From Gallionella sp. (GTDB lineage Bacteria > Pseudomonadota > Gammaproteobacteria > Burkholderiales > Gallionellaceae), in NCBI GenBank assembly GCA_028689145.1, contig JAQTWT010000001.1, positions 248,001-312,000 on the forward strand: a stretch of DNA of 64,000 nt, given 5' to 3'. Within the stretch, counting starts at the first letter, position 1. Each line of letters begins with the position of its first letter. Shown here in pieces: positions 8,903 to 57,531 of this stretch. A model generated the notes under the pieces. It was not told where the DNA came from, searched no databases, and saw nothing but the letters and a program-made list of their open reading frames with translations. Both the position numbers and the translations under genes were made by a program.

Positions 8903-9967
8903 ATGTTTAGTTTCCTGAAAAAAAATCCGCCTGAAACCCCGGCAACCAAGCCCGACGGCGGCTGGATTGCGCGCCTGAAGTCCGGGCTGGCGCGCACCGG
9001 CAACCAGCTGACCGGCCTGTTCATTCCCGGCGGCAGAATCGACGATGAACTGTACGAAGAACTGGAAACCATCCTGATCACCGCCGATGTCGGCATGGAC
9101 GCGACCGGCGCGCTGCTCGCCGACCTGCGCCGCTACGTCAGAGAACACCACCTGAGCGAAGCGGGACAAATGAAGGAAGCGCTTGCTCACTGCCTGCTCA
9201 AGCTGCTCAAACCACTGGCGCAACCGCTGCAGGCCGACACCCATAAGCCGTTCGTCATCATGCTATGCGGGGTAAACGGTGCGGGCAAGACCACCTCCAT
9301 CGGCAAGCTGGCCAAGTATCTGCAGGGGCAGGGCTTGTCGGTACTGCTTGCGGCGGGCGACACGTTCCGCGCCGCGGCACGCGAACAACTGATGACCTGG
9401 GGCGAGCGCAACAATGTGACGGTGATCGCGCAGCAGAGCGGCGATGCCGCCGCGGTGATCTACGATGCGGTGCAGGCCGCGCAGGCGCGCAACATCGACG
9501 TGGTGCTGGCCGATACCGCCGGACGGCTGACCACCCAAGCGCACCTGATGGAAGAGATCAAGAAGGTCAAGCGCGTCATCGCCAAAGCCTTACCGGACGG
9601 GCAAGCCCGCCCCCCCCTATCTAACTTTCCCCCGCAAGCGGGAGAAAGGACAAACGAATCGCTACGCGAATCTGGCTCTAGTGCGCCGCACGAGGTGCTG
9701 CTGGTGCTGGATGCCAACACCGGCCAGAACGCGCTGAGCCAGGTCAAAGCGTTCGACGAGGCGCTCGGTGTGACCGGGCTGATCCTGACCAAGCTGGACG
9801 GCACCGCCAAGGGCGGCGTGATCGCCGCGATTGCCCATTCCCATCATCACCGGGCACATCCGATCCCGGTGCGTTTCATCGGCGTCGGCGAAGGGCTGGA
9901 TGACCTGCGCCCGTTCGTCGCGGAGGATTTTGTCGCGGCGCTGCTGGGGCTGGACGAGGGCAATTAA
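8903..9967 (+). CDS. ftsY: Signal recognition particle receptor FtsY (with in-frame insertion)
   Basis: SRP receptor GTPase that docks ribosome-SRP complexes at the inner membrane. Start ATG at 8903 (MFSFLKKN). The N domain is followed by the G domain: P-loop [15 protein letters not shown] (residue ~123), [29 protein letters not shown] and the closing [11 protein letters not shown]. Between the DTAGRL and TKLDG motifs, just before [17 protein letters not shown], there is an extra stretch of about 29 residues (roughly 9595-9681; [20 protein letters not shown]) encoded by a palindromic repeat. FtsY homologues normally read ALPDAPHEVLL here. The acidic A domain is very short. The 3' end is duplicated downstream at 10835. 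Confidence 0.95.
9612..9662. repeat. CCCGCAAGCGGG repeat inserted in ftsY
   Basis: A perfect-loop hairpin CTTTCCCCCGC-AA-GCGGGAGAAAG (9625-9648), followed by GGACAAACGA, with CTATCTAACT before it. The same unit recurs between genes at 45432-45470. Here it adds codons in frame to the FtsY GTPase domain. Confidence 0.8.
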
Positions 9968-9997
9968 AAACTATTGCGACGCTGAGCCAGTATCACC
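9776..9997 (+). repeat. Direct repeat A: genuine 3' end of ftsY plus flank
   Basis: Runs from GGGCTGATC to the sequence TTAAAAACTATTGCGACGCTGA...GTATCACC just past the stop codon. It recurs as copy B at 10835-11057 with 7 synonymous differences and two changed final codons. The short downstream tract TTAAAAACTATTGCGACGCTGA also recurs a third time at 10801-10822. Confidence 0.9.
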
Positions 9998-10429
9998 TTA
10001 ACGAATCACGCGTCGTGCCGAAATCTTCAAACGCTTGGCAGCAGAAAGCATTCCTTCATCAAGCGTAGCGACAAACTCCACCCCATTGTTATGCGCAACA
10101 GCCAAATGCAAGGCATCCGGTGCGCGCAGTTGCGTGGCGAAGTTTGCGACGTATTCACCGGCCAACTCGAAATCGTAACTAGTGGGGACAAACACAAACA
10201 GCGACGATGCGACGACCGAGCCGAACTCATCGACCAACTGCCGCCCCTCGGCAGTCGTCAGCATCCCCATGCGGACATCGCGCGACACCAGACTGGCGAA
10301 TTCAACGTCCGTCCATTTGCTGACGGCCAGCGTGCCTGCCGCTTGACGGGAAACAAAATCTGCCACCTTCCCGGAAGTCGCCTCCTCCCGGAACAACGGT
10401 GCGAGAAAACTGGTATCGAGATAGATCAT
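9998..10429 (-). CDS. PIN-domain toxin (VapC-like ribonuclease)
   Basis: 143-residue PIN-domain protein, the toxin of a type II toxin-antitoxin pair. PIN nucleases cleave RNA with a Mg-binding acidic quartet. The expected residues are visible: Asp5 in MIYLDTSFLAPLF, Glu in WTDVEFASLVSR, Asp in LRAPDALHLAVA and Asp in EFVATLDEGM. Its ATG overlaps the antitoxin stop by 4 nt (ATGA). The pair sits between two copies of the ftsY 3' end, which points to acquisition as a unit. The RNA target is not predictable. Confidence 0.9.
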   Translation of the reverse strand: MIYLDTSFLAPLFREEATSGKVADFVSRQAAGTLAVSKWTDVEFASLVSRDVRMGMLTTAEGRQLVDEFGSVVASSLFVFVPTSYDFELAGEYVANFATQLRAPDALHLAVAHNNGVEFVATLDEGMLSAAKRLKISARRVIR

Positions 10430-10662
10430 TCCGCATCACGCAGTTCGCGCAAAGCCTGCGCACTACTCCCCTTCCGTGCAGGAAGCTGTTTACGCAACTC
10501 GGCCAGCCGCTTCAAGGGAACAGGCTGTTTGATAGGCGTTGCAGGCACCACCTTGGCGACCGGACGGCCATGCCGGGTGATCACCACCTCCTCGCCTAAC
10601 TCGACTTTATGAATCAACTCACTCAACTGCGCCTTGGCAGTCGCCAGATTGACCGCACTCAT
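10426..10662 (-). CDS. Phd/YefM-type antitoxin
   Basis: 78-residue antitoxin. The N-terminal Phd/YefM DNA-binding fold is clear: VNLATAKAQLSELIHKVELG, then EEVVITRHGRPVAKVVP. The C-terminal half is basic and probably disordered, wrapping the PIN toxin. It is first in the operon, preceded by AGGAG. Two direct TGACCATAA repeats upstream are likely autoregulatory sites. Phd-type antitoxins commonly pair with PIN toxins. Confidence 0.9.
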   Translation of the reverse strand: MSAVNLATAKAQLSELIHKVELGEEVVITRHGRPVAKVVPATPIKQPVPLKRLAELRKQLPARKGSSAQALRELRDAE

Positions 10663-10672
10663 GATCTGCTCC

Positions 10673-10693
10673 TTATGGTCATAATTATGGTCA
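10673..10693 (-). promoter_or_regulatory. Direct-repeat operator/promoter of the PIN toxin-antitoxin pair
   Basis: Two copies of TTATGGTCA (10673-10681 and 10685-10693; TGACCATAA on the transcribed strand) are spaced by 12 nt, about one helical turn, immediately upstream of the antitoxin ribosome site. This spacing suits cooperative binding of the antitoxin. The role is inferred. Confidence 0.5.
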
Positions 10694-10834
10694 CAGTATA
10701 AACCCGACGGACAAAATTGCCAGATTAAATTACTAGCCGGAATGAGCCAGAATATTTTGTGGTGCCCCCTATTACCCCAGTTGGGGCTAGAGGGGAGCGA
10801 TTAAAAACTATTGCGACGCTGACCCCGTATCATT

Positions 10835-11026
10835 GGGCTGATCTTGACCAAGCTGGACGGCACCGCCAAGGGCGGCGTAATCGCCGCGATTGCCCATTCC
10901 CATCATCACCGGGCACATCCGATCCCGGTGCGCTTCATCGGCGTGGGTGAAGGACTGGATGACCTGCGCCCGTTCGTCGCGGAAGATTTTGTCGCGGCGC
11001 TGCTGGGGCTGGACGAGAGTAGTTAA
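10835..11026 (+). pseudogene. ftsY C-terminal fragment (duplicated 3' end)
   Basis: Encodes the last about 63 residues of FtsY ([20 protein letters not shown] ... [13 protein letters not shown]) with its own TAA at 11024-11026, but no N or P-loop region. It matches the real gene at 9776-9967 with only synonymous changes until the last codons (GN becomes SS). The downstream tract TTAAAAACTATTGCGACGCTGA is also copied (to about 11057). There is no ribosome site or proper start, so it is a remnant. It marks the right edge of the PIN toxin-antitoxin insertion. Confidence 0.9.
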
Positions 11027-11097
11027 AAACTATTGCGACGCTGATCCCGTATCGCTGCGTATCACCTGCTAACCCCGTATCACCTAGCTGCTCAAAT

Positions 11098-11720
11098 TTA
11101 TGCAGTGGTGACGTATTTGCTAAAATAATTTGTTATGACGAAACAAAATGGGTATAGCTTATTATTTGACTGAGGAGCTGAATATTTTTTTATAATTATT
11201 GCCAATTCCGCTTCTGTTAAATCGATGAATGCTTCAATCAGCTTTTTTCGAGATGAATTCAAGCAATTAACATCCAAAGCAAGCTCCTTGATTGTCTTTG
11301 AAGCCGCCTTATCCTTTTTATTGGTCGCGTAAATTTCACCAAAGGCAGAATATGAAAACCTTGATCCACACGATGCTAATAACGGTGTTACAAAACTAGG
11401 TGTATACAAGTTTTCTTTCTTGTGTCCGCAATGAATTGGTTGTTTAGGTTTATATGCGTCCGGTTGACAAGAAGCAAGGAGGTTGCCGTAATCGAATGTT
11501 AGGGATTTATCTTTGCTTCTTGGAATAAGGTGCTCAATGTGACTACTAGATTCATTAATCTCTTGGCCGCAATAGCAACATATGAACCTTGTTCCGCCAA
11601 TAATGATTTGAGGACTACATTTTTTAAAGGGTTACGTAATTTTTTCCAATCTGTTCCCTTGTATTTTGATTTCCAATTATCAAATTTCAATGGAGAGTTA
11701 TTCTTTTGTATGTACCTCAT
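11098..11720 (-). pseudogene. HNH endonuclease, PtuB-like (TIGR02646 type), frameshifted
   Basis: Two open segments in different frames together make one HNH protein of about 207 residues. The first, from the ATG at 11720, reads to LLAEQG. The match then continues in the +1 frame from about 11586 with FICCYCGQEIN, HIEHLIPRS, FDYGNLLASC and HCGHKKENLYTPSF. No stop lies in the joined frame. The CCYCG and HIEH motifs and the length fit the HNH partner of Septu defence systems. The break lies in the sequence CAAGGTTCATATG, where one base appears lost. Its ATG overlaps the upstream ATPase gene by 4 nt. As written, the gene gives a 73-residue truncated product. True mutation, sequencing error or programmed shift cannot be told apart here. 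Confidence 0.8.
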
Positions 11721-12982
11721 TTTCCAAGAAGCTCCCTTCTGACAATTAATGCTTCGGCTTTTACCAATTCTGGGTCGTCACCTATCAGGTTTTTTAACTT
11801 AGAAATGAGTGAGCGTGCTTTTTTAAAATTATTGTTTTCAATTTCAAGAAAAAGCTGACCTAGCATTAGGTGCACATCATCAGGGCGGTCTTGGGTTTCC
11901 ATCAAATCTTCAAGCAAGCGTTCTGTATTTCTACCGTACGAAAACTTAGGCTGCAGTGCAATTATTTTTCCGTCGGCAGATGACTTAATGATGTTGATGC
12001 ATTCAGGCTTCACCTGACTGAGTACTAGAGGTGAGTGTGTCGACACAATGAATTGGCAGTTCTTAAACGTTTCACTAAGTGATGAAACGATCCGTCGTTG
12101 CCATGTTGGATGTAAATGCAATTCAATTTCATCAATCAGGACGACTCCTTCTCCCTCTAGGGGATCGGCCAATCCGGGATTCGCCAAGGCCAAACGTCGA
12201 GCCAAATCACCAACCATTGCTAGCAAGCATTTTTCGCCATCAGATAATTGATTAACACTAATCTCTGTCTTATTCTTTTTCAACACCATTCTTAATGGTG
12301 TTCGTTTTATCTTTATATCTGAAAAGTTTGGTACAAGTTTGTAAATGGCGCGTCTTACACATTCAAGCTGTCTATCCCTTTTTCTTGAATTATTTATACG
12401 CTCTTCATTTTCGATATCTTCGCGATTTCTAAACCATTCAAAAAACAATCTGAAATTACTACTCTGACCATTCAGTGCATTGTCTATGGCCTCGTGCTGA
12501 TCGAATATGTGCTTACCTTTAATCCTGAGCGGGATATCCAGCACAGCACGGTTTGTTGGGTAGTAAACAGCTATTGGAATATTGCAAGACGCATCTGTCT
12601 TGATTTTTTCCCGCAAACTATTGGTAATAGCTTTAATTTGCTCTAAATTTGAAATTCGTTGAGCTGATGGGGTAGTGCTGCTATATCGATCTCTAATTAC
12701 GAACCATGTAACATCACCCGAATCGTCAAGGGTTATTGTTATGGTATTTTGAGTTTTAGAAACGCCATTTCGAATGTCTGCAACGCTGAATACTCTGCCA
12801 CCGGCTCCGTGCTCTGACTTAACTCGGCAAGTGAATCTAGAAAGCAATACAGCCAAGCAGTCTATAACTGACGATTTGCCACAACCATTTACACCCGCAA
12901 TAACATTGACGTTCTCGTGAAAAACTAAAGGGAGCGATTCGATCCCTCTGAAATTCTCGATTTGGAGTTGCTTTATCTTCAT
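11717..12982 (-). CDS. AAA ATPase, PtuA-like (Septu anti-phage system)
   Basis: 421-residue RecF/SMC-like ATPase. The N-terminus MKIKQLQIENFRGIESLPL is typical of OLD/RecF-type proteins. Walker A GVNGCGKSS lies near residue 31. The ABC signature QLSDGEKCLLA, Walker B GVVLIDEIELHLHP and the switch His in STHSP follow in the second half. Paired with a downstream, overlapping HNH gene, this is the layout of Septu (PtuA-PtuB), where the ATPase controls the nuclease. No reverse transcriptase is nearby, so a retron is not supported. The gene is clearly AT-richer than ftsY or ftsE, consistent with horizontal transfer. The C-terminal 70 residues form a helical tail. Confidence 0.8.
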   Translation of the reverse strand: MKIKQLQIENFRGIESLPLVFHENVNVIAGVNGCGKSSVIDCLAVLLSRFTCRVKSEHGAGGRVFSVADIRNGVSKTQNTITITLDDSGDVTWFVIRDRYSSTTPSAQRISNLEQIKAITNSLREKIKTDASCNIPIAVYYPTNRAVLDIPLRIKGKHIFDQHEAIDNALNGQSSNFRLFFEWFRNREDIENEERINNSRKRDRQLECVRRAIYKLVPNFSDIKIKRTPLRMVLKKNKTEISVNQLSDGEKCLLAMVGDLARRLALANPGLADPLEGEGVVLIDEIELHLHPTWQRRIVSSLSETFKNCQFIVSTHSPLVLSQVKPECINIIKSSADGKIIALQPKFSYGRNTERLLEDLMETQDRPDDVHLMLGQLFLEIENNNFKKARSLISKLKNLIGDDPELVKAEALIVRRELLGK

Positions 12983-13168
12983 CTTGCGGCCTTAATTTCA
13001 CCATTTACATTCATATGTAGCGCAAGCTAATTATAGAGTAAACGGGCTAGTATCTAACAATTAAACGTGAACAATCGGGGACAGACCACGATTTCTTTGC
13101 AATCATCACTTCACCCCTAACCCTAACCCGCACTGCCATTGGGGTCGAGTTCGGGATATGTTTCTGAA

Positions 13169-13462
13169 TCACGCCGCCAGCTTCAGTTCGACTTTCTTCC
13201 CCGCCCGCGTCGCCAAGGTAATCAGCATGTCCAGACTGAATTTCTCGAATTTGCCGCGTATCAGGTCGGATACGCGCGATTGGGAGATGCCGAGTACCTG
13301 GGCGGCTTCGGCCTGCGTCCATTGCTTGTCGCGGATTAGGATTTCGAGTTGGCACATCAGTTCAGAACGCATTGCGAGGATGGCCGCTTCATCCGGCGGG
13401 AAGCCAAGGTCGAGGAATACATTGCCGCTGGATTTGGTGATTTTGAGTTTCTCTATTTTCAT
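13169..13462 (-). CDS. XRE-family antitoxin (HigA-like)
   Basis: 97-residue protein with a helix-turn-helix of the lambda-repressor type at residues 45-75 (WTQAEAAQVLGISQSRVSDL). It belongs to the short HTH antitoxins that follow HigB/RelE-like toxins. Its start overlaps the toxin stop by 4 nt. It should neutralise the toxin and repress the operon. Confidence 0.88.
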   Translation of the reverse strand: MKIEKLKITKSSGNVFLDLGFPPDEAAILAMRSELMCQLEILIRDKQWTQAEAAQVLGISQSRVSDLIRGKFEKFSLDMLITLATRAGKKVELKLAA

Positions 13463-13782
13463 TTCGCACTTTCCTTGAGTTGCTTGTAGCGGGCGGCTGC
13501 CAGCGCGATATCTTCCTTGCGCGTCTGCTGTGTCTTTTTCTGGAAGGCGTGCAACACATAAACCGCATCCGCGAATTTAGCCACATAGATCACGCGCCAT
13601 TCGCCCAGCACGTGGACTCGAATCTCATATGCGCCAGCGCCTACATTCAGCATCGGCTTCCAGTCGGCAGGCATCAGACCGGCCTGTACACGGAAGAGCT
13701 GAAAACCTGCGGCTTGCTTCACCTCATGGGGGAATGCGGCCAGATCGTCTTCGCTGGAGCCGATGAACTTGAGGGGTTTCAT
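13459..13782 (-). CDS. HigB/RelE-superfamily toxin (phage Gp49-like)
   Basis: 107-residue toxin of the RelE-like fold. Typical stretches: MKPLKFIGSSEDDLAAFPHE at the N-terminus, GAYEIRVHVLGEWRVIYVAKF in the core and VYVLHAFQKKTQQT with the basic RNA-cleaving surface. The toxin-first order identifies a HigBA-like pair. It is the right-hand gene of the accessory island and is transcribed away from ftsE. Confidence 0.88.
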   Translation of the reverse strand: MKPLKFIGSSEDDLAAFPHEVKQAAGFQLFRVQAGLMPADWKPMLNVGAGAYEIRVHVLGEWRVIYVAKFADAVYVLHAFQKKTQQTRKEDIALAAARYKQLKESAK

Positions 13783-13792
13783 GCGGGCAATA

Positions 13793-13806
13793 TATAAGTA
13801 TTTATA
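13793..13806 (-). promoter_or_regulatory. AT-rich palindrome upstream of the HigBA-like pair
   Basis: TATAA-GTAT-TTATA lies 11 nt before the toxin start, in a region resembling a -10 element. An autorepression site for the HTH antitoxin is plausible. This is inferred from position and symmetry. Confidence 0.35.
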
Positions 13807-13928
13807 TTAAATGACAAGTGGGGATTTTTTGTTGTGACGCAATACCCGGGACAACCGGCCCTGCCGCCCGTCATGAAAACGGCCACGAAGAATTGCTTTC
13901 TCCGCAGCAAGCCGCTAGCATCCGCAAG

Positions 13929-14579
13929 ATGATTTCCTTCAACCAAGTCTGCAAACGTTACCCCGGCGGCTATGAGGCGCTGAAGAACGTTTCGTTCGAC
14001 ATCGCGGCGGGCGAAATGGTATTCCTCACCGGGCATTCCGGCGCGGGTAAGAGCACGCTGCTCAAGCTGATCGCCGCGATCGAGCGGCCCAACTCCGGCA
14101 GCGTGCTGGTGAACAATCAGAACGTCGGCGTGCTGAAAGGCGGCGCATTGCCTTATCTGCGCCGCAACCTCGGCATCATCTTTCAGGATCATAAATTATT
14201 GTTCGACCGCAGCGTGTTCGACAACGTGCTGCTGCCGCTGCAAATCTGCGGCTTCGATCACCGCGAAAGCGGCAAGCGGGTGCGTGCCGCGCTGGATAAG
14301 GTCGGCCTGATCAAGCGCGAAAAGGCCAACCCCATCGCGTTGTCCGGCGGAGAGCAGCAGCGTCTGTGCATCGCGCGCGCCATCGTCAACCGTCCCGCCA
14401 TCCTGCTGGCCGACGAGCCGACCGGCAATCTGGATGCGGCCTACGCACAGGAAATCATGGCGATCTTCAAATCGTTCCATCAGGTCGGCGTCACGCTGCT
14501 GATCTCCACGCACGACGAGATCGTGCTGCAGGACAGCGGGGTGCGCGTGCTGGCGCTGAAGCACGGAGAGTTGCAATGA
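13929..14579 (+). CDS. ftsE: Cell division ATP-binding protein FtsE
   Basis: ATPase of the FtsEX complex, which activates septal peptidoglycan hydrolases during division. The ATG at 13929 ([18 protein letters not shown]) is chosen; the codons upstream are not FtsE-like. Walker [10 protein letters not shown], signature LSGGEQQR, Walker [13 protein letters not shown] and the switch ISTHD are all present in 216 residues. The stop codon overlaps the ftsX start. It normally follows ftsY directly; here the island intervenes. Confidence 0.97.
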
Positions 14580-36863: not shown

Positions 36864-39800
36864 CTAAAACTCTTCCCACTCACCGTCGTCACCGTGTGGC
36901 TTACCTTGTGGTTTGGTTGCTGGCGCTTTACCCGAGCCCACTTTGGCGGGGGATGCTGCCTTGCGTACCGGGACAGCGTGTTGCGGGGTGCGTGCGACTG
37001 CAGTGCTGCCGGAGTGACTGTCCACCTTGAACGTGCCCACCGAAACCGACAGATTCTGTGCCTGCTCTTCCAGAGATTCGGCGGCGGCAGCAGCCTCTTC
37101 CACCAGCGCGGCATTCTGCTGGGTCACTTCGTCCATCTGGGTAATAGCCAAGTTGACCTGCTCGATACCGGCGCTCTGTTCGACTGATGCGGCGGTGATC
37201 TCTGACATGATGTCGGTGACGCGTTTGATCGCGGTGACGATTTCTTCCATGGTCTGTCCGGCCTGCGCCACCAGCTTGCTGCCGCCTTCGACTTTCTCCA
37301 CCGAGTCGCCAATCAGCGTCTTGATCTCCTTGGCTGCTGCTGCGGAGCGTTGTGCCAGATTGCGCACCTCTCCGGCCACCACCGCAAAACCGCGCCCCTG
37401 CTCTCCCGCTCTGGCCGCTTCAACCGCAGCATTCAGCGCAAGAATATTGGTCTGGAACGCGATACCGTCGATCACGGAAATAATGTCCACGATCTTGCGC
37501 GACGACTCGTTGATCGAGTCCATGGTGGTGACCACCTGATTAACCACTGTACCGCCCTTGGAGGCAATATCCGAGGCACCAATCGCCAGCTGGTTGGCCT
37601 GTTTGGCGTTCTCGGCATTCTGCTTCACGGTCGAGGTCAGCTCTTCCATGCTGGAGGCGGTCTCTTCCAGACTGGAGGCCTGTTCCTCGGTGCGCTGTGA
37701 CAGATCGTTATTGCCTGCCGCAATTTCTTTGGCGGCGGTGTTGATGGTGTCGGTGGCATCCTTGATCTGGCTGATGATCTGGCTCAGATTCTCGGCAGTG
37801 CCGTTTGAATCGTTCTTCAATTGGCCGAAGGTACCGCTGTAATCGTTGCTGATGCGGTCAGTTAAATCGCCCCGCGACAACGCTCCCAACATGCGTACCA
37901 CTTCCTGCAAACCCTTGTCGGAGGTTTCTACCAGACCGTTTACATTTTGCGAAAGCTCGCGCATAAAACCTTCCTTGCCGGACAGTTCGATGCGCCGGGT
38001 AAAGTCCCCATTCTTCGCCGCCTCTACGATGGTGCGCACTTCAGACTCCACCTTCAGCTCAAGTGTGGCATCCTGCCATTCCACCGCTGTGCCGATACGT
38101 TGTCCTTTTTCATTATTCACTGGCATGGCGGTTAGCTTGAAAGTGCGGTCGCCGATTTTGATCGTCGCTTTATACAATCCCGACAATTGTTTTACCATTG
38201 CCTGCTGGTGTCCCGGATTCTTGTGGTAGCTGTCGAAATTTGACCCCAACACCTTGTCAGCGACGAAATGCGGCATCACCTTGCGTATCGCCTCCTCGTT
38301 GTCCTTGAACATGCGTTGAGCCGTACGGTTGATATAGACAATCTTGCCGTTGGGGTCCGCAATGGTCACATTGGCCGTGGCATCATCCAGCGCCGAACGA
38401 ACGCGCAGTGCCTCATCCGATACGCGCTGCGCTTCGCGCACCATGTATACCAGCGTATCCTGCATGCTGCGCATCGAGGCGATCAGGCTGGAACTATCGC
38501 CTTCCCGTGCGGCGATCTTGTAGTTCAAATCGCCGCCGGCAATGGCCTGCGCCACCTGGCGCGCATACTTCGGCTCCCCGCCCAATTCGCGCAACAGCAC
38601 GCGGATGATCCATACCGAAAAGAACAGCGCGGCCGACAGCGCGAACGCCGTCAGCAACAGAAACATCCACCACTGGCGCCGCGCTTTTGTCTCCAACTGA
38701 TCGGCCAGATTGCGCAGCTCGTCTGCCAGCACATCCTCGACCTGTTTCATGCCCTCGATCTTCTGGGTGATATTCTTGAACCAATGCGCCGGATCTACGC
38801 CGAACCCGCCGGTTGCAGCCTTGCCGATCGCGACCTGGCGCAGCCGCTCAACCTCGGCTACCGCTTCCATGTTCGCCTCGTCCTGATATGCATCCAGTTC
38901 GTTCTTGCTGGCATAGCCACGGAACAGCTCCGAATAGGTCTTCTGGTTAGCCAGCAAACCGATGAAGCGCTGATAGGCATCGCCATCGAATTTGTCGGCC
39001 GCAAAAGCCCCGTTCACCGTGGCGCGCTCGCGCCCGGCCATCTCCTTCTCATTGAGAAACATCAGATAGGCGCTGGTAGAACGGGCCAGCTCCTGATTCG
39101 AACTGATCCTGGCGGTGTAGGAAATAACATCCAGCCAGGAAGCGATGAATCCCGTGTAGAAGCCGAACGAATCCTTCGGCGCAAGTTGCAGGCTGGCAAT
39201 TGAGGCGCGACTGGCTTCCAGCGTCTTTAAACCTTCCTGCGCACTAGCCAATTTATCGCGGAATCCCGCCTGCAAGCTGCCCTGATCCAGCGTTGCGATC
39301 AATTCGCGCAGTTCGACGATACGCTGGTCGGTTTGCCGGCGTTGCTGCGGCAGTTCACCGGCAAACTTCATGCCATTGGAGGACAGAAAACCCGCCGACA
39401 TGCCGCGCTCTTTTTGCGCCTCGTGGATCACCGCGCTGGACTTCACCGCCAACTCGGTGGTGACCCGCATCGCACGCAATTCATTCAGCGATTGGGTTTT
39501 TTCCCACATGCTGTTGACGGAAAAATACAGCAAGCCGAGCACGGGAAATACCAGCAACATGAGCAAACGCAAGCGCAATGGCACGTTTGACAACAGGGAA
39601 CGCTCGCCCGCGTGCAAATCAACTTTCTTGCCGGCGCGTATTGCCTGATAGACTTTTTCCGCATTTGCCTTCTCGCTGGCGGTCACCCCCCGCCGCACCG
39701 AGGTATAACCCACGATCTTGCCGTCCTCGCGCGTCGGAGTGACATGCGCATGCACCCAATAATGGTCGCCGTTTTTGCTGCGGTTTTTGACGATGCCTTC

Positions 39801-40175: not shown

Positions 40176-42479
40176 TCAAAACTCTTCCCACTCACCATCC
40201 GCATCGCTACCCTGCGGCTTGGTTTTGGGTTTTGCCGGTGCGCCTTTGCCGGGTGCTGCCTTGGCCACAGAAGCGCCCTTGCGTGCCGGGGCAGCGTGTT
40301 GCGGAGCGCGTGTAACCTGAGCCGACTCGCGACGCGCCACTGCGGTGCTGCTTGAGTGACTGTCCACCTTGAACGTGCCCACCGAGACTGACAGGTTCTG
40401 CGCCTGTTCTTCCAGCGATTCGGCTGCCGCTGCAGCCTCTTCCACCAGCGCGGCATTCTGCTGGGTCACTTCGTCCATCTGGGTGATGGCAGTGTTGACC
40501 TGCTCGATACCCTGGCTTTGTTCTTGGGAAGCAGCAGTGATCTCGGACATGATGTCGGTCACGCGCTTGATCGCGGTAACGATCTCTTCCATGGTCTGTC
40601 CGGCCTGCGCCACCAGCTTGCTGCCGCCTTCGACTTTCTCCACCGAGTCGCCAATCAGCGTCTTGATCTCCTTGGCTGCTGCTGCGGAGCGTTGTGCCAG
40701 ATTGCGCACCTCTCCGGCCACCACCGCAAAACCGCGTCCCTGTTCACCGGCTCTGGCCGCTTCAACCGCGGCATTCAGCGCAAGAATATTGGTCTGGAAC
40801 GCGATACCGTCGATCACGGAAATAATATCCACAATCTTGCGCGACGATTCGTTGATCGAGTCCATGGTAGTCACCACCTGACCGACCACTGCACCGCCTT
40901 TGCCCGCCACGTCCGAGGCGCCGATCGCCAGTTGATTGGCCTGTTTGGCGTTCTCGGCGTTCTGTTTCACGGTGGAGGTGAGTTCTTCCATGCTGGAGGC
41001 GGTCTCTTCCAGACTGGAGGCTTGCTCTTCGGTACGCTGCGACAGGTCGCTGTTACCCGCGGCGATTTCCTTGGAGGCGGTGTTGATGGTGTCGGTCGCG
41101 TCCTTGATCTCGCCGACCAACTGTTTGAGGTTGTCTACCGTGCCGTTCACACCGTTCTTCATGTCGCCGAACGAGCCTGGGTAGTCCTTGGCGATAGTTT
41201 GGGTCAGGTCGCCCTTGGCCAAGGCATTGGCCACGCGCACCACGTCGGCAATGCCGGTTTCGGTGACGTTGGACAACTGGTTGAGCAGATCGGACAGGGT
41301 CTTGGTGTAACCGGCTTTGCCGGTCAAGTCCATTTTGGTGCTGAAGCTGCCGCGTACTGCCGCGTCTTCGACGATATCCTTGATTTCGCCGACGATCTTG
41401 GTCAGTGCCTCGACCGTGCTGTTGACACCGTTCTTGGTCTGGCCGAATACCCCCGGATACTCCTTGGTGATCTTCTGGCTCAAATCGCCGGCAGCCAGAG
41501 CGGTAGCGACGCGGGTAACGTCATCCATCGCAGTGCCGGTGATATCGGAGAGCTGATTGAGCAACTCGGACAGTTCTTTGGTGTAACCCGCCTTGCCGTT
41601 CATGTCCATCTTGGTGCTGAAGCTGCCCCGTACCGCCGCTTCTTCGACGATGTTCTTGATCTCGGCGACGATGGCGCGCAGGCTGTCCTGCATGGCTTTC
41701 ATTGAGCTCAGCAACACGCCGACCTCATCCTTCTGTCCGGTGTCGATGTTCGAGCTGAGATCCCCAGCAGCGATCGCGCCGGCGACCTGCTGGGCGGTTT
41801 GCAGGGAACGGGTGATGTTGCGGATCAGCATGAAGCCGATGAGGGCCGCCAGTGCAATGCCCAGCACGATGGAGAATATGGAAACGGTGCGGGTGGTTTC
41901 GTATTCGGCGCTGGACTTCTCGAATTCCTGTTTGGCCACCTCGACCTGCAGGTTCTTCAGGCTATCGGCCAGTTCCATAGCCTTGCTGCCCTTGGGGCCG
42001 ACGGCTTTAACCATCACGGTATTGGCTTCGGCGTAGCGTCCCTGTTTGTACAGGTCCATCGCGGGGAGCAGGCCATTCTGGACGAAATCCTTGCGGTTCG
42101 CGGCATATTCCTCGGCCAGCACCTTCTCTTCCGGGGTCAGATAGGAGGCCATGTAGCCATCCCAGACCTTGCCGATCTCGGCGATGTTTTTCTCGACCTT
42201 GTCGGTGTGTCTGGAAATCGGGTGATCGTGCAGTTTGCTTTCTTCCATGCGCGGGTCATGCATGCCGGACAGATGCAGTTGCTGAATGTTCTCGGACATC
42301 AGATCGGTGATTTCGGCGATCTGCGCCAGCGGCACGGCACGATCCAGATAGACCGAGCGTAGCCCGTCGTTGGCATGGCTCATGCCGCGCAAGCCGATAA
42401 AGCCGATGACCGCCAGAACGACAGACAGGAAGGATATGAGATAGATCAGGCGCGCTTTGATGGTGAGGTTCTTTAACAT
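40176..42479 (-). CDS. Methyl-accepting chemotaxis protein, 4-helix-bundle sensor with repeated HAMP-like units
   Basis: 767 residues from the ATG at 42479 (GGGAGA 7 nt upstream). Membrane segments near residues 10-30 and 190-212 flank a four-helix-bundle periplasmic domain. HAMP follows, then two tandem units of about 92 residues starting [20 protein letters not shown] and [20 protein letters not shown]. Each unit ends with a [24 protein letters not shown]-like segment. The signalling hairpin and C-terminal EWEEF match the receptor encoded next downstream. DNA identity between the two signalling regions is near complete over long stretches. Confidence 0.92.
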
Positions 42480-45359: not shown

Positions 45360-45431
45360 TGGATTTTTCCTAGAGTGATGTGTGAAAAATTCTGATTGAA
45401 CTCAATGTAGGTCTGGCAAGAACATCCCTCT

Positions 45432-45470
45432 CTCTAACTCTCTCCCGCAAGCGGGAGAAAGGACAAACGA
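45432..45470. repeat. CCCGCAAGCGGG repeat upstream of cheA
   Basis: CTCTAACTCTCTCCCGCAAGCGGGAGAAAGGACAAACGA-type unit (hairpin CTCTCCCGC-AA-GCGGGAG). It is the same element as the one inserted in ftsY at 9612-9662. It lies between cheY and cheA. Confidence 0.75.
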
Positions 45471-47401: not shown

Positions 47402-48529
47402 CTATTTCGGCGAATGGCACAACAGGCTGCTATCGCCTTCTCCCGCTACCGCAATTCTTTCCAGTGCGGCGAGAACCTCCATACTGTCGGCTTCCATTCT
47501 ACCGACCAGTTCGATACCGAGCAGAGGATCACCGGCTCGAAACGCTGTGACTGCCTCCCGTCCATTCTGGTGGAATGCCTGATGCGGATTTGCAATGGCT
47601 GCGTAACCGTCCAGTCTGGAAAAACAATCCTTGCCTTCGCCCTCGAAGTACCACTTGCCCAAACGGCATGCGGTGTGCGACGCAAAGCTATCAGCAGTGC
47701 GCTCGGAGATGCCCATGAACACTTTGTAAATTTCAAACTTGTACAGGATGTGGTCAATTTTGGCGACTTCGACGAAACTGCGCAGTGCCGCGGCTGAAAT
47801 CGTGCCTTCCATCTGGTGCGACAGACTCAGCACTTGCTGCATATTATCCATGACACCGCCGACATCGCGGCCAAATACCTGTGACTTCGCCGCCCATTCT
47901 TCCATCTGCACTTTAGTGAGATCGGTTTCGCCCTGAATGGCAACCACAATCGTCGAGATTTCGCTGGTCGCCTTCGCGGTGCGCTCGGCCAGTTTGCGCA
48001 CCTCGTCCGCGACGACCGCAAAGCCGCGCCCTTGTTCGCCGGCGCGCGCGGCTTCGATGGCCGCGTTAAGCGCCAACAGGTTGGTCTGGTCGGCAATTTC
48101 CTTGATCAGTTGAACGATGCTGCCGATCTGCGCCGCCCGTTCAGTCAGATTCTGCACGTTTTGCGAAGTTTGCAGCGTGTCGCCGGACAGCGCCTCCAGA
48201 CTTTGCGATATCTGCAACACAGCCGTGCGGTTGTTTTCGGAAATACTGGCCGCTTCAATGGCGTGTTGTTTTTCTTCGCGCAACGCCTGCGCTGCGGCAA
48301 CCTGGGATTGTTGCAGCACGGCAAAGGAATCGCCGAATCCCTGCATATTGGCAAACAACCGCGCCGAGGTGTCGTGTTCCGTCCGAAGCGCCTTCAACTC
48401 GGTGAGCGCCGCGTCACGCTCATTTTCCAATGCAGCCAAATTACTGTGCATTGCGGCGATCTCTTGCTCGGTTTGGCTTAACCTCGCGCGCAATGACTGG
48501 TGTTCACGTCTTAATTTTCCGCAAAACAT
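47402..48529 (-). CDS. Soluble chemoreceptor with zinc-binding CZB domain
   Basis: 375 residues, no membrane segment. An N-terminal coiled coil (about 1-70) precedes the signalling domain ([20 protein letters not shown]). The C-terminal CZB domain has the expected zinc ligands: His in [14 protein letters not shown], Cys in [13 protein letters not shown] and His in [11 protein letters not shown] receptors such as TlpD respond to zinc or oxidants such as hypochlorous acid. It is encoded directly after the second cheA. Confidence 0.9.
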
Positions 48530-55893: not shown

Positions 55894-57531
55894 TCACACT
55901 CTGAATTTACTTACCACGCCTTGTAATTCTTTTGCCACATGCTCGAGGCATACGATATTTTCGTTGTTTGATTGCAATGCAGCGGAGCTCTCTTCAGACA
56001 TTTGCGCGATTTTTTCCACGTTGCGTGCAATGTTGGCGCTTGCCACGCTCTGCTCGACTACCGAGGCGGCAATATCGCTTACTCCCTGACTGGATTGTGA
56101 CACAGCCTCGCCAGCTTCGGTCAACACCTTCGAGACGCGCTCGACCTGCTCCTGGGTTGCCTGCAGGGAGCGCAAGCCCTCTTGCACCACTTCTTCGACA
56201 CGAGTTGATTTCTGGTTTAACGAATTGGTCACCTGATCAATTTCGTTCGCCGACTGGGCGGATTTTTCCGCCAGCTTGCGCACCTCGTCCGCTACCACGG
56301 CAAAACCGCGCCCCTGTTCGCCGGCGCGAGCCGCTTCGATCGCCGCATTTAACGCCAGCAGGTTGGTCTGGTCGGCAATTTCTTTTACCTGCTGTGTCAT
56401 GCCGGCAATAGCGCGCGTGCTATCGACAAATTCTTTGACCGAGTCGGCGATCTGATTGACCGTCTCCTGCACATGACTGATCTCGCCAATCATTTCCATC
56501 ATGCTTACATTACCTTGTTGAGTTTGCAGCAGACTAGCCTCGGACAGTTTGCGTACGGTTTCGGTGTTGGCGGCTACCGAATTGATGCTTACGGTGATCT
56601 GCTCGACCGCCGCCGACGTTGAAGCTGCCGCTTCGCTTTGCGTGCGCGAACCTTGCGCAATTTGCAGCGAGGCTACCGATAAATGTGCCGCCGTACCGGA
56701 CAACGAATCGGTATCGGCAAGCACGACTTTGATGATATTTGAAAAGCCGTCGATCAGCCCGTTAAAAACCGTGGCTGCCTGACCAATCTCATCCTGTCCG
56801 TACACTCTGGCGCGTGCGCTCAAATCGCCGTCGGCGGACATTTTTACCATCACGTTGCGCAACTCGCTTATGGAACGATTGATACCGCTAACAATGGAAA
56901 AGCCAAGCACGCCACCCAAAGTCGCACCGAGCAAAATCAGCGCGAGAACCAGCATGCGCATGTTATTGAATAACACGCCGGAATCTTCATACGCTTCCTG
57001 GGCATCGCCCTTTTGCATATCGATCAAGGCGGTCAGCGCTTTATCCAGCGGGGCGGACAAGGGGGTTATGTGCTCCACCTGTATGCGCCGAACCTCGGTT
57101 GCGTTATTGGCTTGCATCGCGATGACAATTGGCTTAACACCCTCTTCGACGAAGCGTCCGCGCGCAGCGACAAAATCGGCAGCCAGCCTCTTGTCTTCCT
57201 CATCTACAACATGCTCCCCCAAAATCGCTGCGGTAAACTCAGTCCACTGCTTGTCGATTGCAGTCTTGTTTGCCTCGATTTCATGTGCATATTTCGCCAT
57301 ATCTTCGGGATGGTTAATCGCGCTGGAGATAGCAAGCCGGTTATTCATATTGGCGATATAGATAGTATTCAACTGTGTGAGCGGAAGCACACGATCCTCG
57401 TAGACCGATTTGATTGCGCCATTCAGCTTACCGGATGCAAATAACCCAACCCCTCCAACCATAACAAGCGCTGTTACTAAAAAGGCCAGCAAAATCCATA
57501 ATCTGGCACTAATTTTCATGTTATTTAGCAT
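55894..57531 (-). CDS. Methyl-accepting chemotaxis protein (4-helix-bundle sensor)
   Basis: 545 residues, Tar-like layout. Membrane segment 1 ([20 protein letters not shown]), a periplasmic four-helix bundle of about 160 residues, segment 2 ([20 protein letters not shown]), HAMP and the signalling hairpin [20 protein letters not shown]. There is no C-terminal tether peptide (ends VVSKFRV). ATGs at 57531 and 57519 are both possible starts. It is the first gene downstream of the sigma-28 promoter. Confidence 0.93.

Follow-up and report, generated by a model that had tools for sequence, protein, structure and literature searches.

How does a toxin-antitoxin module come to lie between two copies of the end of a conserved gene, with the gene itself left whole? 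The question is raised by a stretch of DNA from Gallionella sp. (positions 248001-312000 of contig C7 of genome G000, which measures 2.74 Mb); the whole stretch, 64,000 nucleotides long, is referred to here as the window. The 3′ end of a gene that we take to be ftsY is found there twice, as a gapless direct repeat of 219 nt (94.5% identity, spacing 1059) at 9776-9994 and 10835-11053. The original prediction was that a PIN/Phd module with its own ftsY end rebuilds the gene on insertion, a proposal that our analysis partly supports. In iron-oxidising relatives of Gallionella, a few conserved genes have toxin-antitoxin (TA) or defence genes at one end, and beside these stands a second version of that gene end, truncated and somewhat divergent. 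The comparison suggests that the cassettes spread together with a piece of the target gene and in this way leave the gene intact. The names ftsY, ftsE, ettA and fadA are presumptive, some of them being those of the first reading of the sequence.

The duplicated ftsY end and the ftsY-ftsE insert

The features of the region, in window coordinates, are the following.

8903..9967, plus strand: ftsY, complete, ending in copy A (open reading frame; orthologues in relatives)
9776..9994, plus strand: copy A, ftsY 3′ end (219-nt direct repeat)
9967..9989, minus strand: T1 terminal repeat beside copy A, degenerate (pattern match)
9998..10429, minus strand: PIN-domain toxin (PF01850, E 1.1e-11)
10426..10662, minus strand: Phd/YefM antitoxin (PF02604, E 4.7e-12)
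10804..10826, minus strand: T1 terminal repeat that edges the cassette, with its GGGG end toward copy B (pattern match)
10835..11053, plus strand: copy B, ftsY 3′ end in truncated form, its start lying 8 nt past the T1 repeat (direct repeat)
11026..11048, minus strand: T1 terminal repeat beside copy B (pattern match)
11098..11409, minus strand: PtuB piece, C-terminal part (PADLOC E 9.2e-21)
11499..11720, minus strand: PtuB piece, N-terminal part (PADLOC E 1.1e-9)
11717..12982, minus strand: PtuA ATPase of Septu (PADLOC E 1.1e-150)
13077..13094, plus strand: T2 terminal repeat of the GGGGACAGACCACG type (same ends flank Y1 genes in L217, L227 and L232)
13169..13462, minus strand: HTH_37 protein, antitoxin-like (PF13744, E 2.9e-21)
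13459..13782, minus strand: Gp49 (RelE/ParE-like) protein, toxin-like (PF05973, E 1.7e-25)
13929..14579, plus strand: presumably ftsE, the usual neighbour of ftsY (open reading frame; orthologues)

The presence of two ftsY 3′ ends was confirmed, though the repeat stops about 3 nt short of the limits first proposed, as was that of a PIN/Phd pair between them, which matches PF01850 and PF02604 and whose toxin and antitoxin genes overlap as in type II toxin-antitoxin systems. A third ftsY end, thought to lie at 10801, was rejected. A third piece does exist, as a 51-nt match at 10782-10832 (86%), its conserved part being the T1 repeat AAAAACTATTGCGACGCTGA, a transposase terminal repeat and not an ftsY end; the codons upstream of it (LGLEGSD) bear a weak similarity to ftsY that we do not count as one. 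A plasmid search with the cassette as query returned no match.

The insert extends to ftsE at 13929 and comprises three minus-strand cassettes (PIN/Phd, Septu and Gp49/HTH), the Septu pair consisting of an intact PtuA and a PtuB split over two reading frames. When related ftsY-ftsE regions were compared, as had been proposed, the two genes were usually adjacent: in the named records ftsE lies within 400 nt of ftsY at 67 of 80 loci (within 40 nt at 48), two loci have larger gaps (6286 nt in L044 and 772 nt in L081), and the remaining 11, some of them short stretches, show no ftsE within the available DNA. The gap measures 3965 nt in the window, 6234 nt in G030 and ~6.6 kb in G022, and the cargo, 4 to 6.6 kb in all, differs from site to site among these three and L044. 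The proteins scanned were a UvrD-like helicase, a protein kinase and one protein without match in G030; a NERD-UvrD helicase, a DUF4143 ATPase and an HNH-effector-like match in G022; and a CARF6 match, an ORC-CDC6-like protein, a metallophosphatase and a D12 methyltransferase in L044. G022 also harbors a second, truncated ftsY end (codons 318-352) directly before ftsE, its edge lacking a repeat tip. No recombinase or integrase was found among 17 proteins scanned from the inserts at the four sites, a subset of their open reading frames that includes seven window proteins scanned with Pfam and PADLOC. The compact state of most loci, the different cargo at four sites and the 17 recombinase-free proteins agree with the earlier description of the ftsY 3′ end as an insertion site without a visible integrase. 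A relative with a single ftsY end and the same TA pair in place, the case named beforehand as contrary, was not encountered, homologues of the pair lying on contigs other than those of the ftsY matches in a set with many draft genomes.

In the minimal mobile elements of Neisseria, a given pair of conserved neighbours can enclose one set of genes or another, and mobility genes are absent. The window, G030, G022 and L044 likewise carry different cargo between one and the same pair of genes, with no mobility genes among the open reading frames scanned; the present sites differ from those elements in having transposase-type edge repeats and a second, truncated version of the neighbour gene. As part of the joint reading developed below, we give even odds to the ftsY-ftsE gap being one of a few integrase-free cassette sites in the genus. 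The four L044 genes listed above stand in a row (9137-13889) and possibly form a defence cluster not yet described.

Copies A and B differ in their last two codons and at seven others, and these seven changes are all synonymous, exactly as first stated. The accompanying claim that both ends evolved as coding sequence is upheld at P 0.0002 if both copies are taken as neutral, but at P 0.05 if one is constrained. Synonymous bias was also seen in G022 ftsY, G046 fadA and G002 ettA, and four cases pooled (30 synonymous, 7 not) yielded P 0.02 with one copy constrained. Five of the seven changes are assigned to copy B, all of them synonymous, when judged by six close relatives; with all loci compared, the change at 9925 would be assigned the other way. 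Whether copy B is closer to the ftsY of another species had been named as a check. A and B are mutual nearest relatives, the next standing at 92-93%, and an origin of copy B in a distant species is therefore rejected. The ftsY gene is mosaic between lineages, L040 being 83-86% identical in four bins before 9597 and showing two mismatches in 9597-9747.

Positions 9597-9700 of ftsY hold an in-frame repeat-like insert, 98% shared with L040 and partly present again at 45426-45470 (91% over 45 nt). The window contains two further direct repeats, at 36991-37829 / 40333-41171 (839 nt, 88%) and 47985-48100 / 56267-56382 (116 nt, 88%).

The repeat at the cassette edge

AAAAACTATTGCGACGCTGA occurs in three copies in the window against 0.00 expected in shuffles. 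In a comparison set of 76 genomes of the genus (Gallionella and close kin, own genome included), it was found with up to two mismatches in 21, against 2 of 76 for a reversed control pattern, and a sample of 300 genomes from the order yielded a longer T1 pattern in 9. In L219, a Y1 gene for a 243-aa protein has the reverse complement of AAAAACTATTGCGACGCTGA, GGGGTCAGCATCGCAATA..., just ahead of its start codon, and related GGGG ends flank other Y1 genes of 240-290 aa, several as inverted pairs. Three of these Y1 proteins match PF01797; against the NCBIfam model for REP-associated tyrosine transposases the same three score below the cut-off (best 75.6 vs 80 bits). TIRYT elements, in the passages available to us, have a flanking repeat core GGGGWSAS and repeats that form dispersed families (PMC3733652, PMC6006769), the motif of subclass 2.1 being reported as GGGG[AT][CG]A[CG] (PMC6006769). 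The T1 tail is thus a terminal repeat of TIRYT (RAYT-like Y1) transposase elements: its core fits GGGGWSAS and it matches the ends of Y1 genes in the genus, a feature by which TIRtrons are recognised.

The locus itself carries no Y1 gene between inverted repeats. A PF01797 search of the own genome gave four hits, none in the window, and the flanks read around these four genes held no clear GGGG ends, one degenerate TGGGTCAG lying near one of them. IS200-type Y1 genes were rejected as the source of the repeat because the paired ends were seen at the loci of the 240-290 aa Y1 genes instead; among the IS200-type loci (L185, L189-L204), a GGGG-type match occurred only in L196 and L203, and none was T1-like.

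The likeness to TIRtrons (TnpAY1 subclass 2.1, RAYT-like) lies in the GGGGWSAS-type repeat and its dispersed families, as far as the passages on TIRYT describe them (PMC3733652, PMC6006769). Here, in contrast, the repeat edges TA cassettes that lack a transposase gene and adjoins truncated host gene ends, features absent from those passages (PMC3733652, PMC6006769). One of the same sources mentions, in the part available, E. coli strains in which a REPtron locus is replaced by a toxin-antitoxin operon (PMC6006769); in the titles and abstracts of the literature searched, RAYT/TIRYT repeats were not linked to TA cassettes or gene-end duplicates.

Duplicates are enriched at the outer edge of the repeat. 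One was present at the outer edge of T1 at 13 of 88 sites and at the inner edge at 3 of 89 (Fisher P 0.009, loci L298-L377 left out), against 7/699 random positions (outer edge versus random, P 7e-9); some of the duplicates are short or weak (L047, L178, L277). The loci behind this and the other counts of duplicates are not a random sample, each having been included because it carried ftsY, a Y1 gene, a TA homologue or the repeat. An earlier test, counting duplicates of at least 30 nt that start within 20 nt outside the tip, gave 12/85 repeat sites against 6/510 random ones. Other repeat kinds had duplicates at 1/57 (T2), 1/56 (T3) and 4/26 sites (T4, all in one low-complexity run of L214). 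The L219 Y1 gene itself adjoins a duplicate (100 nt, 99%).

Integron gene cassettes form arrays of small genes, TA pairs included, with repeated edges. A similar array is seen at 6500-11400 of L167 (G024:C84), where small genes have T1 and T3 repeats at their edges, in one orientation throughout the stretch read. Judged by eye, the T1 repeat bears no resemblance to integron attC or Xer dif sites.

Recurrence at fadA and ettA

Homologues of the TA pair were found in G042, G046 (two), G040, G027 and G010, and in part in G009. At G046:C37, the fadA 5′ end and a truncated duplicate of it (251 nt, 93%) enclose a homologous PIN/Phd pair, with the repeat tip on the truncated-copy side, and in G002, G044 and G065 PIN-type cassettes follow ettA and are themselves followed by the repeat tip and a truncated ettA end. 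A cassette adjoining a truncated second gene end, as originally described for ftsY, is thus seen again at fadA and ettA, with the same layout at all three genes: gene end, cargo, repeat tip, truncated gene end.

Among the matches listed, additional incomplete copies of the ettA 3′ end often lie close to ettA. At 31 ettA loci, 28 fragment pieces were counted, 5 of which had a repeat tip no more than 25 nt from their edge; at six ettA loci the longest match was the fragment itself, in 3 cases with a tip. The tip is therefore present in 8 of 34 fragments, the other 26 having no recognised tip at the edge. The repeated rounds of insertion suspected at the outset are in keeping with the several fragments present in each of G044, G037 and G032. 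A cassette shared by G044, G028 and G065 (83% over 640-657 nt) meets ettA at a different reference position in each, 613, 656 and 738 respectively, and its edge has thus been joined at least three times.

Twenty-nine ettA pieces of at least 45 nt were ranked against 37 resident genes, 25 of them having their own gene in the set. The resident ettA was the best match for 2 of the 25 and tied first for 1, a ranking that opposes one own gene to the best of 36 others and is thereby biased toward other genomes. Best foreign and own identities were 94% vs 83% in G032, 93% vs 73% in G037 and 86% vs 74% in G051. Compared with the average of the others, own identity was higher for 14 of 18 pieces and lower for 4, clearly so in G037 (0.73 vs 0.86), G032 (0.83 vs 0.88) and G051 (0.74 vs 0.80), the first two being marked cases, with G021 (0.76 vs 0.77) as the fourth; in both tests, pieces of one interrupted fragment were counted separately. 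Given the bias of the ranking and the 14 of 18 pieces above the mean, a foreign origin is clear for some ettA fragments and not for most. Which ettA copy tracks the gene body varied across pieces.

In the own genome, a T1-like repeat lies at C7:370120-370142, ~2 kb from ettA (C7:372184), and a 44-nt ettA-like piece at C7:223954-223997, ~1.4 kb from a T1 repeat (C7:225410) and ~148 kb from ettA.

How the cassettes may enter

We put at roughly 0.5 the probability that the cassettes enter by homology, bringing a gene end along. A cassette, here the PIN/Phd pair edged by a TIRYT terminal repeat, would travel on linear or circular DNA with the adjoining host gene end and enter a related cell by homologous recombination within that gene end. 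Its far edge, sometimes at the repeat tip, possibly after cleavage by a Y1 transposase, would be attached somewhere within the resident gene end. This would leave the host gene complete (copy A), with the truncated allele (copy B) beyond the tip, and repetition would build arrays. What we observed in its favor is the layout at several genes, the enrichment of duplicates at the outer edge, a site with differing cargo and a cassette with three break points; the presence of a comEC homologue is supporting context. The resident ettA that seldom ranked first, the clearly lower own identity in G037, G032 and G051, the synonymous bias and the mosaic ftsY also speak for it. The reading is weakened by the many tip-less ettA junctions and the biased test of foreign origin, and against it also count the own identity above the mean in 14 of 18 pieces, the mixed outcome as to which copy follows the gene body, the synonymous excess, weak with one copy constrained, the small number of duplicates at other repeat kinds and the own Y1 genes without clear GGGG ends. 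In homology-facilitated illegitimate recombination, as outlined in the part of the source available, one side is joined by homology and the other without it (PMC3240628), and the proposed entry would similarly have one homologous and one non-homologous junction; here, however, a fixed cassette edge recurs, often at the repeat, and the truncated resident end is kept.

More tentatively, these could be the traces of an integrase-free system in which TA and defence genes are cut at the tip of a Y1-transposase repeat together with a piece of the neighboring conserved gene, the piece acting as an address label that would direct homologous re-entry to the corresponding gene of another species. With the gene kept whole, arrays would then grow at ettA, ftsY and fadA.

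Transposition in place seems unlikely. Y1 (TIRYT) machinery would insert the cassette and duplicate 30 to 270 nt of the gene end next to it, the copies then diverging within the genome; this would suit the fixed cassette edge with its variable break points, the duplicates at the outer edge of the repeat, the one beside the L219 Y1 gene and the 14 of 18 pieces to which the own ettA is nearer than the others are on average, but the fragments of G032, G037 and G051 are far nearer to other species than to the own gene and all five copy B changes are synonymous. Somewhat less probable is a variant of entry by homology with a defined molecule, an excised circle whose tip is joined to an inner point of the gene end and which integrates by a single Campbell-type crossover in that end. 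Such a circle would yield exactly the order gene end, cargo, tip, truncated end, and circular single-stranded intermediates are described for the related IS200/IS605 family in the part of the source available (PMC6006769). The circle is hypothetical, and tip-less junctions would need another closure.

The integrative element e14, at icd, brings a replacement end to the 3′ end of its target, and the gene is kept whole. A duplicated end beside a whole gene and the preference for 3′ ends at ftsY and ettA recall such elements, yet here no integrase was found, the length of the duplication and the break point vary, the latter even for one cassette where a fixed short core site at both ends would be expected, and fadA is targeted at its 5′ end. 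A remnant of a tyrosine recombinase island that targeted gene 3′ ends with a replacement end and has since lost its integrase is thus very improbable, the 17 scanned proteins including no recombinase. Least credible of all is an assembly chimera of two strains: many of the relatives are metagenome assemblies and A and B resemble alleles of near relatives, but the junction falls at the repeat tip, and likewise in other assemblies and genes, including large contigs of G002, G065 and L044.

No mobility genes are visible with the small TA and defence genes that move between genomes. If entry by homology is correct, a gene-end fragment traveling with such cargo would account for its arrival at conserved loci whose genes stay unbroken and for the growth of arrays there, and TIRYT repeats might then have a role as well. 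The fragments would then be a record of the donor lineage, readable from sequence.
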